Virus record (IMG/VR): IMGVR_UViG_3300033146_001906
Span: 1 to 22,867 of that record
Origin: a virus
Strand: one strand, 5' to 3'
Length of the DNA stretch: 22,867 bases
Made by a program: the position numbers and the translations under genes. Each line of letters starts with the position of its first letter. The stretch's first letter is position 1. Below are positions 7,170 to 11,273 of the stretch, in pieces. The notes below the pieces were generated by a model. That model saw only the letters and a list, made by a program, of their open reading frames with translations. It was not told where the DNA came from and did not search any database.

Positions 7170-7598
7170 ATGAATAAAAGAAAGAAATATACAGCAGCAG
7201 AATTACAAGTTTTAGATAATATTATTAATGAATATGGAACAATTGGTATTAGACAATTGACTAAAAAGTATAATATTACACCTGCAACTTTTTATAAATG
7301 GTTAGAATATAATCCAACATATAAAGAAAGATATTTAAAAGCAAAATATACAAAAGCTGAAGAAGATAATAATCATATAGTAGAAATAGCACAGTCTAAA
7401 CTATTAGAAAAAGTTGAGGATGATCATTTCCCAGCTATTAAATTTGTATTGGAAAACAAAATACTTTTTAATGATATTAAAAAAGCTACAATTAGAAAAA
7501 TAGCTGGAGGTATAAAATCTATATTACCTGACATTTCTGAACAAGAAGAAATAAAACTTATTAAAATGTTTGAAGATCTTGAAAAAGAAATAATTTAA
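7170..7598 (+). CDS. Terminase small subunit
   Basis: 142 residues. The N-terminal region reads like a helix-turn-helix DNA-recognition domain: GTIGIRQLTKKYNITPATFY followed by KWLEYNPTYKERY, typical of phage small terminases, which recognise viral DNA for packaging. A helical middle (IVEIAQSKLLEKV) and ENKILFNDIKKA suit the oligomerisation region. The acidic C-terminus (FEDLEKEII) could contact the large subunit. The gene is upstream of the large terminase at 8134, separated by a tRNA and a lysin gene, which is unusual because the two subunits are normally adjacent. The start is an ATG after an A-rich leader. Confidence 0.78.
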   Translation: MNKRKKYTAAELQVLDNIINEYGTIGIRQLTKKYNITPATFYKWLEYNPTYKERYLKAKYTKAEEDNNHIVEIAQSKLLEKVEDDHFPAIKFVLENKILFNDIKKATIRKIAGGIKSILPDISEQEEIKLIKMFEDLEKEII

Positions 7599-7619: not shown

Positions 7620-7693
7620 TGCGGGGTGGAATAGTGGTCAAGTTCGACAGGCTCATATCCTGTAGGTCGTAGGTTCAAATCCTACCTCCGCAA
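7620..7693 (+). tRNA. tRNA with CAU anticodon, initiator-like
   Basis: A 74-base cloverleaf folds completely. The acceptor stem TGCGGGG pairs with CTCCGCA with one G-U. The D stem is GAAT/GTTC, the anticodon stem ACAGG/CCTGT with loop CTCATAT (anticodon 7654-7656), the variable loop AGGTC and the T stem GTAGG/CCTAC with loop TTCAAAT. The discriminator is A; no CCA is encoded. Much of the sequence matches bacterial tRNA-fMet (GCGGGGTGGA, AGGTCGT, GGTTCAAATCC, CCGCAA). The D stem has A11-U24, the purine-pyrimidine order typical of initiators. It departs from the type in having U1-A72 instead of the C1xA72 mismatch, and A29-U41 in place of one of three G-C pairs. Elongator Met or Ile2 is less likely. 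Confidence 0.85.
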
Positions 7694-7699
7694 CATATT

Positions 7700-8137
7700 A
7701 TGATACAACTTATATTAAAAATATTTATAATAATAATGTTAAATACATCAAAATATAATGCTTTAAAGCAAGTTGAACATAAATTAATAACAGGAAATAA
7801 AAGAATATCTGTCGAAAAGTATCTCGGTACACCTTATAAATGGGGTGGAAATACTTTGAAAGGTATTGATTGTTCGGCACTTATAAAAAAGATATATAAA
7901 GATGAATTAAATATAGATATACCTCGAATTTCATATAATATAGCAAAGATAGGGATAGAGGTAGATACAAATAAAATTTATAACATATTAATATTTGATG
8001 GGCACGTTGCATTAATGTTAAATAATAATAAATTTATACACGCTACAAGTTCAAAGGGTGTAATAATAGATAGTATAAATAGTAGAGTTTGGAATCACTA
8101 TTGGAAATATAGATACATAAAAACAATAAAAGTTTGA
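7700..8137 (+). CDS. NlpC/P60 peptidoglycan endopeptidase, probable endolysin
   Basis: 145 residues with an NlpC/P60 cysteine peptidase domain that would cut peptide cross-bridges in the cell wall. YLGTPYKWGG (41-50) leads to GIDCSALIKKIY with catalytic Cys58. His102 (DGHVALML) and His114 (FIHATSSKGV) complete the site. The usual 'pGDLvfF' segment is reduced. The start is uncertain. ATG 7700 lies only 6 bases after the tRNA 3' end and adds a hydrophobic segment (IQLILKIFIIIM). ATG 7736 follows an AT-rich leader and gives a soluble 133-residue enzyme. The gene ends in a TTGA overlap with the terminase start. Its place between terminase genes points to a phage lysin, although a tail-associated role is possible. 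Confidence 0.8.
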   Translation: MIQLILKIFIIIMLNTSKYNALKQVEHKLITGNKRISVEKYLGTPYKWGGNTLKGIDCSALIKKIYKDELNIDIPRISYNIAKIGIEVDTNKIYNILIFDGHVALMLNNNKFIHATSSKGVIIDSINSRVWNHYWKYRYIKTIKV

Positions 8138-9636
8138 AAAAACAAGATAAAAAATATTATACACAAGAACGAGAAAGTTATTATAATTCTTTGAGATATA
8201 AAGTAGGTTTAAATAATAATTTGAAAAGTAAACAAGATAATACAACTTTACAAGATTTTCAATTATTTGTATCTACTTATTTTAAACATTATACTACAGA
8301 TAAAAACAATAATGAAATAAAATTATCTAAATATCATTTAGATTTAATAAATGAATTATATAATGATAAAGTTGAAATATTAGCTGAATTTTCAAGAGGA
8401 TTCGCTAAAACAACAGTTTTCTCTTTATTTGCACCTATTTATTTTATGTTAAAAAATGAAGCACATTTAATATTATTAATATCAGCTACTAAAGATGCAG
8501 CTGTTAAACAATTAATAAATATTCAAGTTGAATTAGAAACAAATCAAAAATTAATAGCAGATTTTGGTCCATTTATTAAAGATGGAAGTTGGTCTAAAGG
8601 TGATTTTGTTGTTAATAATTATGATTGTAAATTTACTTGTGCTGGTAAAGGTCAATCAACAAGAGGTCTACGATATAAAAAATATAGACCTGATTTTATA
8701 ATAGTAGATGATATTGATACTGATAAAGATTCAAGGAATAAAGCATTAGTATTACATCATTATGATTGGTTAATGCAATCTGTATTATCTTCAATGGAAC
8801 TTACTAAATATAAATTTTTATTTGTTGGTAATAGGTTTAGCCATAATATGGTATTAAATCATTTTTCAAAAGTTGAAGGTATTAAATATATTAAAGTTAA
8901 TGCACTTGATGAAAATGGTGAAAGTAATTGGAAAGATAGATATTCTACTGAAGATTTAAATCATATTAAAAAGAAAATAGGCTCTATACGATTTCAAAGA
9001 GAATATATGAATACGCCTATTACGGTAGGTTCTATATTTAAAGAGGAATGGATACAATTTAAACATATTAATGATTTAATATCTTATCAATACATTGTTA
9101 CTTATGTTGATCCATCTTGGAAAAAAGAAGGTGATTATAAAGCAATTATAACTTTAGGGTTTATAAAAAATGAGTATCATATAATAGATATTTATTTAAG
9201 GAAAGAAACAATGTCAAATGTTATTGAATATTTATATGAATTAAATGATAAATTATTAAAAAGTGCATATTCTATTTATTATGAAGCTAATTTTGCACAA
9301 GATTTACATCAAAAAGAATTTGATGAAATAGCTGAACAAAAAGGATATACATTACCTATTAGACAAGATAAAAATAAAAAGGGTAATAAAGAAGCAAGAA
9401 TAGAAAGTTTATCAGTTGTATTTGAAAATAGAAAAATATTCTTTAATAATTTAATAAGCTTATCATTAGATTTTGAGGAATTTAAAAATCAATTACTTTC
9501 GTTTCCTGAAACTAAACACGATGATGGAATTGATGCACTACAATCAGCTTATGTAAAACTTAATTTAAAACTTAGACATTTAAAATTTGAACCTGTTTTA
9601 GGAGATAAATATGCAGGTAGAGATAATTTTTATTAA
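8134..9636 (+). CDS. Terminase large subunit
   Basis: 500 residues; the ATPase-nuclease motor that packages DNA into the prohead. Walker A is SRGFAKTT (87-94) and Walker B FIIVDD (188-193), followed by a coupling-type segment KFLFVGNRF (217-225). The RNase H-like nuclease domain supplies acidic residues in YVDPSWK (Asp326), YYEANF (Glu384) and HDDGIDAL (Asp463/464, Asp467). Length suits a full-length protein. The only usable start is TTG 8134, because a stop at 8110-8112 precedes it in frame and no ATG exists until well inside. The TTG overlaps the lysin's TGA, so translation is probably coupled to the lysin. The TTG may keep terminase output low. Confidence 0.95.
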   Translation: MKKQDKKYYTQERESYYNSLRYKVGLNNNLKSKQDNTTLQDFQLFVSTYFKHYTTDKNNNEIKLSKYHLDLINELYNDKVEILAEFSRGFAKTTVFSLFAPIYFMLKNEAHLILLISATKDAAVKQLINIQVELETNQKLIADFGPFIKDGSWSKGDFVVNNYDCKFTCAGKGQSTRGLRYKKYRPDFIIVDDIDTDKDSRNKALVLHHYDWLMQSVLSSMELTKYKFLFVGNRFSHNMVLNHFSKVEGIKYIKVNALDENGESNWKDRYSTEDLNHIKKKIGSIRFQREYMNTPITVGSIFKEEWIQFKHINDLISYQYIVTYVDPSWKKEGDYKAIITLGFIKNEYHIIDIYLRKETMSNVIEYLYELNDKLLKSAYSIYYEANFAQDLHQKEFDEIAEQKGYTLPIRQDKNKKGNKEARIESLSVVFENRKIFFNNLISLSLDFEEFKNQLLSFPETKHDDGIDALQSAYVKLNLKLRHLKFEPVLGDKYAGRDNFY

Positions 9637-10091: not shown

Positions 10092-11273
10092 ATGAGATTA
10101 ATTGACAAACTATTTGGTAAAGTTAATAATAAAAAAGTAACAAGTAAAATAATAGAAAGAAATTCTTATCGAATTAGAGAATCTATACAAACTTGGAGAG
10201 ATGCTTTGACTTTAGCCGAAATGAAAGTATCGCCAGATTCAACTATCAAACCTGATAGACGTTCATTATTAAGAATATATAATGAAATTATGTTAGATAC
10301 ACATTTACAATCAGTAATCGATTTACGAAAAGAAAAAGTGTTAGAATATCCATTTAATTTATATACTGATAATGGTAAAATAGATGAAGAATCTACTAAA
10401 AAATTAAAATCAGAATGGTTTTATAAATTGTTATCATATGTTATAGATAGTGTTTTTTATGGACACTCATTAATACAAATAGATGCTATTTATAAAGATA
10501 ATATAGAACAAATAACATTAATAGATAGAATAAATGTTATACCTGAAACTGGTGAATATATGCCAGATATTTATAATAATATGAATAGCATATCTTATTT
10601 AGATTCAAAAACTTATGATTGGCTATTTGAGTTTTATAAAGAACGAGATGATTTAGGTTTATTAAAAGGTATAGCACCTTTAGTTTTATGGAAACGCTCT
10701 ACAATGTCAGCTTGGGCTGAATATACTGAAATATTTGGTATGCCTATCAGAATAGCTAAAACAACTTCAAATGTTGCTGCTGATAGAACAAGATTAGCTA
10801 ATTTTGTAAGAGATTTAGGTAAAAGTGCTTGGGCTGTATTAGATGATGAAGAAACTATTGAATTTATAGAAAATAAAAAATCAGATGCCTTTAATGTATA
10901 TGATAAATTTATAGATAAAATTAATAAAGAAATATCAAAAGCTGTTTTAGGAGTTACGCAAATTAATGAAGATGGTAGTTCTTATTCACAAAGTAAAGTA
11001 CACAGCGATCAATCAGAAATCAAAACAGCATCTGATTTAAGGAATATAGAATTTATAATAAAAGATAAAGTATTACCTAAATTAGTAAAGTTAGGTGTAT
11101 TACCAGAAAATTTAATATTTCAATTTGATAGAAGCACAGTTTTGAAAATAGAAGATCAAATATTAGTTGATGAAAAGTTGAATCTTATGTATCCTTTACA
11201 AAAAGATTACCTTAAAGAAAGATATAACGTAGAATTTGAAGATATAACATTTGAAATAGAAGATAATGAATAA
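10092..11273 (+). CDS. Portal protein, DUF935 (Mu gp29-like)
   Basis: 393 residues forming the dodecameric DNA gate at one head vertex. The sequence follows the DUF935 portal pattern: TLAEMKVSPDS early, then DTHLQSVIDLRKEKV (about 72-86), VIDSVFYGHSLIQID (117-131), and LVLWKRSTMSAWAEYTEIFG (197-216). A later region KINKEISKAVLGVTQINEDG (276-295) is the conserved helix and loop near the crown. It is somewhat shorter than the Mu protein. It overlaps the next start as TAATG. The MuF-type minor head gene that usually follows a Mu-type portal is not seen here; an exonuclease gene occupies that place. Confidence 0.9.
   Translation: MRLIDKLFGKVNNKKVTSKIIERNSYRIRESIQTWRDALTLAEMKVSPDSTIKPDRRSLLRIYNEIMLDTHLQSVIDLRKEKVLEYPFNLYTDNGKIDEESTKKLKSEWFYKLLSYVIDSVFYGHSLIQIDAIYKDNIEQITLIDRINVIPETGEYMPDIYNNMNSISYLDSKTYDWLFEFYKERDDLGLLKGIAPLVLWKRSTMSAWAEYTEIFGMPIRIAKTTSNVAADRTRLANFVRDLGKSAWAVLDDEETIEFIENKKSDAFNVYDKFIDKINKEISKAVLGVTQINEDGSSYSQSKVHSDQSEIKTASDLRNIEFIIKDKVLPKLVKLGVLPENLIFQFDRSTVLKIEDQILVDEKLNLMYPLQKDYLKERYNVEFEDITFEIEDNE

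Follow-up and report, generated by a model that had tools for sequence, protein, structure and literature searches.

A Mu-like phage with a probable Bacteroidota host carries a divergent initiator-class tRNA gene in its head operon

Genomic context of the tRNA gene

The window, that is, the whole 22,867-base virus record (hereafter also the contig), contains a single tRNA gene with the anticodon CAU, on which ARAGORN and Rfam agree (RF00005, 63.5 bits, E = 7e-12). The features of the locus are listed in Table 1. The phage group is evident from the Mu-type portal protein, and other genes of the contig encode a DUF2586 sheath and a capsid. Judged from its gene content, the contig is a Mu-like tailed phage in which the tRNA gene stands within the head operon, between TerS and NlpC/TerL. 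Among the best 80 TerL relatives in genomes, 79 are titled as Bacteroidota lineages and one is a MAG labelled Alphaproteobacteria, and the phage host is probably a member of the Bacteroidota. In genomes, TerL finds its best match at 37-38% identity, and naming of the host below the phylum failed.

Table 1. Features of the tRNA locus and of related loci
Feature	Position	Strand	Basis or remark
Terminase small subunit (TerS), upstream of the tRNA	7170..7598	+	PHROG 1482, E 1.7e-5
Initiator-class tRNA (CAU), positions 1-73, CCA not encoded	7620..7693	+	ARAGORN; Rfam tRNA 63.5 bits; initiator model 73.3 bits
U1, paired to A72 (7692)	7620..7620	+	Sequence; host initiators have a 1-72 mismatch
D-arm, A11 (7630)-U24 (7644), a bacterial initiator hallmark; unusual A12-U23, U13-G22	7629..7645	+	Sequence
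Anticodon arm ACAGG CUCAUAU CCUGU	7647..7663	+	Sequence; comparison with hosts
Within the anticodon arm: A29, U41, anticodon, A37, U38	7649, 7661, 7654-7656, 7657, 7658	+	Sequence
NlpC/P60 gene, starting 6 nt past the tRNA 3' end (7693-7700)	7700..8137	+	PF00877, E 9.9e-19
Terminase large subunit (TerL)	8134..9636	+	PHROG 38, E 1.4e-76
Mu-type portal protein	10092..11273	+	PF06074, E 3.8e-66
U37-C38 family members	L178 7172-7243; L186 7177-7250	-	Further members L394-L472

The four closest relatives (L002-L005), with 76% TerL identity, contain no tRNA. TerS and NlpC overlap in L002 at the place where our contig has the tRNA, and an Rfam search found no degraded tRNA at the matching place in L002. 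Relatives sought through NlpC were distant ones only and were also without the tRNA. Given that L002-L005 have no tRNA and that TerS and NlpC overlap in L002, the simplest reading is that the gene was inserted recently into a tightly packed operon. The same absence indicates that the tRNA is dispensable to the phage group, which we count against a working initiator. Host contamination was rejected as an origin, since the gene is flanked by phage structural genes, and an attachment-site remnant was judged unlikely, because the gene is complete and lies inside the head operon. No promoter-like signal above that of shuffled sequences was found around the tRNA gene, which likewise counts against a working initiator. 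In L002 (6744-9221), and also in L003-L005, TerL is interrupted right after FAK by an intein-like segment of some 325 aa, whereas TerL of the contig is without it.

The original prediction took the A-rich leaders without SD sequences as a hint that the tRNA is involved in the control of translation start. An SD-like 4-mer was found in none of the 22 gene leaders on the contig, and A makes up 45-82% at each of the 20 bases upstream of the genes; nearly all leaders are A-rich, and the exception is the NlpC leader, which consists of tRNA sequence. One published account states that Bacteroidia ribosomes do not recognise SD sequences (PMC9976891), and leaders of this kind are therefore expected for a Bacteroidota phage. 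Because they extend over nearly the whole contig, they do not point to any role of the tRNA, and this part of the prediction is unsupported.

Sequence and fold of the tRNA

In standard numbering, the tRNA reads UGCGGGG UG GAAU AGUGGUCAA GUUC G ACAGG CUCAUAU CCUGU AGGUC GUAGG UUCAAAU CCUAC CUCCGCA A. The cloverleaf is intact, with all 21 of 21 stem pairs formed. The acceptor end comprises U1-A72, G2-C71, C3-G70, G4-C69, G5-C68 and A73, the D-stem has A11-U24, and the anticodon stem has A29-U41, G30-C40 and G31-C39. The gene has a G+C content of 52%, compared with 24% for the contig, which speaks against decay. It lacks an encoded CCA, A73 being followed by CAUAUU, as in most of the Bacteroidota host initiators seen. 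Three points had been missed by the original prediction, namely U38 in the loop CUCAUAU, the odd D-stem and the start of NlpC so close to the tRNA 3' end. The D-stem is GAAU/GUUC, whereas host initiators have GAGC/GCUC, and a pattern search for a second phage with GAAU/GUUC gave three matches, none of which is a tRNA. The computed minimum free energy structure of the unmodified RNA is not the cloverleaf (-23.6 versus -21.2 kcal/mol), which we count against a working initiator; the minimum for a host control tRNA (L310) likewise lies below its own cloverleaf.

Class of the tRNA

We built covariance models from Bacteroidota tRNAs of the fMet (n=14), elongator Met (n=10) and Ile2 (n=11) classes. 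The tRNA scored 73.3 bits with the fMet model, 62.7 with elongator Met and 40.7 with Ile2, which places the initiator model ahead by 10.6 bits. This comparison, together with that against host elongators, could have overturned the initiator assignment and did not: all elongator Met and Ile2 tRNAs parsed from Bacteroidota have C11-G24 instead of A11-U24. The original prediction of an initiator-like CAU tRNA with A11-U24 is thus borne out. An elongator tRNA-Met was rejected on the grounds of A11-U24 instead of Y11-R24, U1-A72 instead of G1-Y72 and the lower model score. A tRNA-Ile2, in which CAU is read as lysidine-AU, was rejected on those of G4-C69, G5-C68, A11-U24 and its model score; nearly all parsed Bacteroidota Ile2 tRNAs have C4-G69, C5-G68 and C11-G24.

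Within the initiator class, however, the gene is not typical. Normal-featured initiators scored 91-99 bits in the same fMet-model run, and 73.3 bits is the lowest score among the initiator-like genes tested, which again counts against a working initiator. The closeness to the E. coli initiator that had been predicted is fair but not striking, given this score and an identity of 78.7% to a Salmonella chromosomal tRNA-Met. Compared with a textbook tRNA-fMet, the tRNA has CAU in an intact cloverleaf, A11-U24 and its best score with the initiator model, but positions 1 and 72, which should be unpaired, form U1-A72, a standard though weak pair, and only two of the three G-C pairs at 29-41, 30-40 and 31-39 are present, 29-41 being A-U. 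Both changes had been correctly predicted. A G-C pair at 29-41 is not strictly defining, because A-U occurs there in some host initiators and in 29 of 68 viral initiator-like tRNAs among the matches listed. G2-C71, C3-G70, A73, A11-U24, G30-C40 and G31-C39 are all kept, and these positions match listed determinants of formylation and P-site selection (PMC9976931; PMC7949028). By these features, the tRNA is an initiator-class tRNA, but a divergent variant rather than a textbook tRNA-fMet; we call it a variant because U1-A72 is paired and because no initiator with this pair was matched in the 198 Bacteroidota genomes searched.

Altered bases in host initiators

The initiator pattern was matched in 100 of the 198 Bacteroidota genomes, with G29 and the loop CUCAUAA in nearly all of them, and the same pattern with U1-A72 was matched in none of the 198. 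U38 of our tRNA thus stands against A38 in nearly all Bacteroidota initiators. A29-U41 with a normal loop is present in some hosts (G020, G022, G023 and G027). In one genome (G084), a prophage initiator copy with U38 lies beside the canonical host copy. In two genomes of a 67% G+C lineage in the same phylum grouping (G224 C1:550171 and G176 C1:2247305; L483, L484), the sole initiator-like match has A29-U41 and U38 and is located within a chromosomal tRNA cluster. Another genome (G083 C31:69516-69885; L485) contains tandem initiator-like copies on one chromosome, two of which have U38; ARAGORN calls the canonical one only.

Initiator-like tRNAs in other phages

Phage-encoded initiator tRNAs are already in the public records, though they are usually labelled only as tRNA-Met. 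U1-A72 was present in 10 of the 68 viral initiator-like tRNAs among the matches listed, a sample that consists in part of the host flanks of prophages. An initiator pattern with A37-U38 matched 60 viral contigs; 40 of the matches were parsed as initiator-like tRNAs, and nine of these have U1-A72. Bases 37 and 38 of the anticodon loop are often altered in phage copies, further loops being UUCAUAU in Escherichia J-01, UUCAUUA in Erwinia phiEa21-4 and UUCAUAC in Pseudomonas PaMx74. The tRNA of our contig is ordinary in kind, in that U1-A72 with A29-U41 (or U29-A41) occurs in several sequenced phages. The two altered hallmarks emphasized by the original prediction are real, but they are not exceptional, either in this combination or, for A29-U41, when compared with some host initiators. 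Its few base differences from the host versions, such as many other phage copies also show, may change its recognition.

Initiator-like tRNAs adjoin or lie near terL in several unrelated phages, as in crAssphage cr60_1 (NC_055891 24392-24613), PaMx74 (JQ067093 3168-3435), the present contig (7620-8134) and Bacteroidota prophages. In one prophage locus (L171 2200-2273, minus strand), a tRNA-Met far upstream of TerL has an initiator-like body and C1-A72 but also C11-G24 and A31-U39, and thus combines features of an initiator with those of an elongator.

A U37-C38 tRNA family in Bacteroidota Mu-like prophages

When TerL relatives were scanned, an initiator-like tRNA with the loop YUCAUUC (U37, C38) proved to be frequent in Bacteroidota Mu-like prophages. 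U37 is very rare in tRNA generally. The position of the gene is fixed: it lies between TerS and the protease/capsid operon, shares its strand with the capsid operon and is divergently oriented to TerS. In the cases listed, the distance is 123-189 nt to the TerS match and 15-167 nt to that of the protease. It was present at 11 of 80 TerL loci in genomes and 7 of 80 in viral contigs, a set that was not selected by loop, and a scan with the U37-C38 pattern found 90 viral contigs. The stems of 47 distinct sequences are 95.2% paired, compared with 81.1% for shuffled sequences, and 6-67, 27-43, 28-42 and 51-63 each show several types of pair. A73 and A11-U24 do not vary, and 45 of the 47 have no pair at 1-72, although the search pattern or filter in part enforces the constancy of U37-C38, 11-24, the D-stem and 30/31. 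In nearly all cases where both are visible, a normal CUCAUAA host initiator is found beside the U37-C38 copy in the same genome. PIN-domain proteins are mostly missing in hosts of this family (G019, G022-G026 and G028-G030), unlike in the comparison Bacteroidota. Membership of our tRNA in the family was rejected in view of its loop CUCAUAU, its location on the TerS/TerL strand and its place between TerS and NlpC.

Proposed function and alternative explanations

We propose, as a reasonably probable reading, that this intact initiator-class tRNA, recently gained, placed in the operon and bearing base changes of a recurrent type, is a working initiator of the tRNA-fMet type that the Mu-like phage acquired and that supplies initiator in late infection. 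It would probably share a transcript with the head and lysis operon and be cut out by host tRNA-processing enzymes; a host enzyme would complete the CCA, and the tRNA would be charged by MetRS and then presumably formylated. In this form it may top up or replace the host initiator pool during late phage protein synthesis. The features needed for charging (CAU, A73) are retained, as are most of those that serve formylation and P-site choice, and the recurrence of initiator-like tRNAs in unrelated phages speaks for this reading, as do the well-paired stems of the U37-C38 family. Against it, U1-A72, as a standard pair, could lower formylation and allow the binding of EF-Tu. Such lowered formylation could let the tRNA serve in both initiation and elongation, a double role also raised by the original prediction, in the manner of human mitochondrial tRNA-Met, where partial formylation and a pairable 1-72 give one tRNA both roles (PMC7949028). 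The standard pair at 1-72 is in accordance with such dual use, but A11-U24, G30-C40 and G31-C39 are kept, the initiator model scores clearly above the elongator models, and the viral initiator-like tRNAs with U1-A72, some 15-22% of the total (the 68-member set being the matches listed), are otherwise initiator-featured, so that we consider dual use improbable. Little more can be said for a passenger, that is, a recently captured initiator tRNA of no benefit that has not yet been lost. The four tRNA-free relatives are what it would predict, but the completeness of the pairing, a G+C content twice the contig average and recurrent carriage in unrelated phages make it quite unlikely. The tRNA may instead act in cis, mainly as a processing site, with a 3' cut just before NlpC that leaves a 6-nt leader and alters NlpC translation. 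The NlpC leader is made of tRNA sequence where others are A-rich, L002 has the TerS-NlpC overlap instead, and the U37-C38 tRNA also lies upstream of a protease/capsid operon; yet any cleaved tRNA would suffice for this purpose, whereas initiator features are specifically retained, and the distances from tRNA to protease in the U37-C38 family vary widely. We therefore give such punctuation little credence. Processing of the tRNA 3' end would in any case make the NlpC mRNA almost leaderless (7693-7700).

Evasion of a nuclease is compatible with the plain supply of a working initiator, since it would be one reason for such a supply. The phage copy would replace initiator destroyed by a host VapC-type anticodon nuclease, and its changed arm (A29-U41 and U38 here; U37-C38 or U37 in relatives) would make it a poor substrate. 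VapC toxins that target initiator tRNA cleave between the anticodon stem and loop (PMC8522696), resistance through loop changes has been proposed for phage tRNAs (PMC10264068), and rescue from tRNA-depleting defences by phage tRNAs has been shown experimentally for tRNA-Tyr and tRNA-Lys (PMC11555353). In addition, host initiators almost all have CUCAUAA, and the phage copy differs from this at 37/38 within one genome in G084 and in 11 genomes with U37-C38. We tested VapC carriage in the carrier hosts as support for evasion, and the result came out against it: a PIN-domain (VapC-type) protein (E<=0.001) was found in 3 of 12 genomes with loop-altered prophage initiators versus 9 of 12 comparison genomes, the two sets being unmatched by lineage or genome size. 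CUCAUAA is also unchanged in many phage initiators, and the only initiator-like match of G224 and of G176 has A29-U41 and U38, so that the change can be normal. Evasion thus seems rather unlikely as the driving force. We are equally tentative about a broader speculation, in which phages keep a separate class of initiators, with an anticodon arm (29-41, 37/38) unlike that of their hosts, that gives late mRNAs a privileged or defence-proof start; the Bacteroidota member, with YUCAUUC, would be fixed in the capsid operon leader, and the tRNA of our contig would be an independent case.

Comparison with known initiator tRNAs

Taken alone, this gene is one more phage initiator tRNA, and its value lies in the pattern that it exposes: many of the initiator-like tRNAs in phages differ from their bacterial counterparts at positions that are presumed to act in P-site selection or that lie where a nuclease is known to cut. 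According to a 2023 study, phages generally do without a tRNA-fMet gene of their own where tRNA-fMet is the target of VapC-LT2 of Shigella flexneri (PMC10264068). In the records analyzed here, many other phages encode tRNA-fMet, often in altered form. This pattern opens a direct test of how large a part of the initiator signature is required and of whether a nuclease or some other force drives the changes.

Bacteroidota host initiators share A11-U24, G30-C40, G31-C39, CAU and, usually, the lack of an encoded CCA with our tRNA, but differ in a 1-72 mismatch (C-A, C-U or U-U), usually G29-C41, the loop CUCAUAA and the GAGC/GCUC D-stem. The U37-C38 family has in common with it the initiator class, a location in the head-gene region of TerL-related phages and, mostly, A29-U41, but differs in its YUCAUUC loop, the retained 1-72 mismatch and its position on the capsid-operon strand divergent from TerS. 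Among named phages, whose matches were found by similarity to A29-bearing queries, which biases how often A29-U41 is seen among them, Erwinia phage Omen has an annotated tRNA-fMet unlike ours, with A1-U72, UUCAUUA and a U-U at 31-39. The Caulobacter phage CcrSC tRNA, noted as fMet, shares U1-A72 but has U29-A41 and CUCAUAA, and Xanthomonas XbC2 shares both U1-A72 and A29-U41. The tRNA-Met of Aeromonas phage 65.2 also has U1-A72 and A29-U41, in an anticodon arm almost identical to ours (GACAGGCUCAUUACCUGUAGGUCG), but with U37-A38 instead of A37-U38, an encoded CCA and a location next to further tRNA genes in a large phage. The tRNA-Met of crAssphage cr60_1 (NC_055891, 24392-24465) differs in its loop CUCAUAA (A38), its canonical D-stem, an unrelated phage family and an intein in its terL; it shares U1-A72, A11-U24, A29-U41, G30-C40, G31-C39 and the lack of CCA, and it adjoins terL, just as our tRNA lies near terL.
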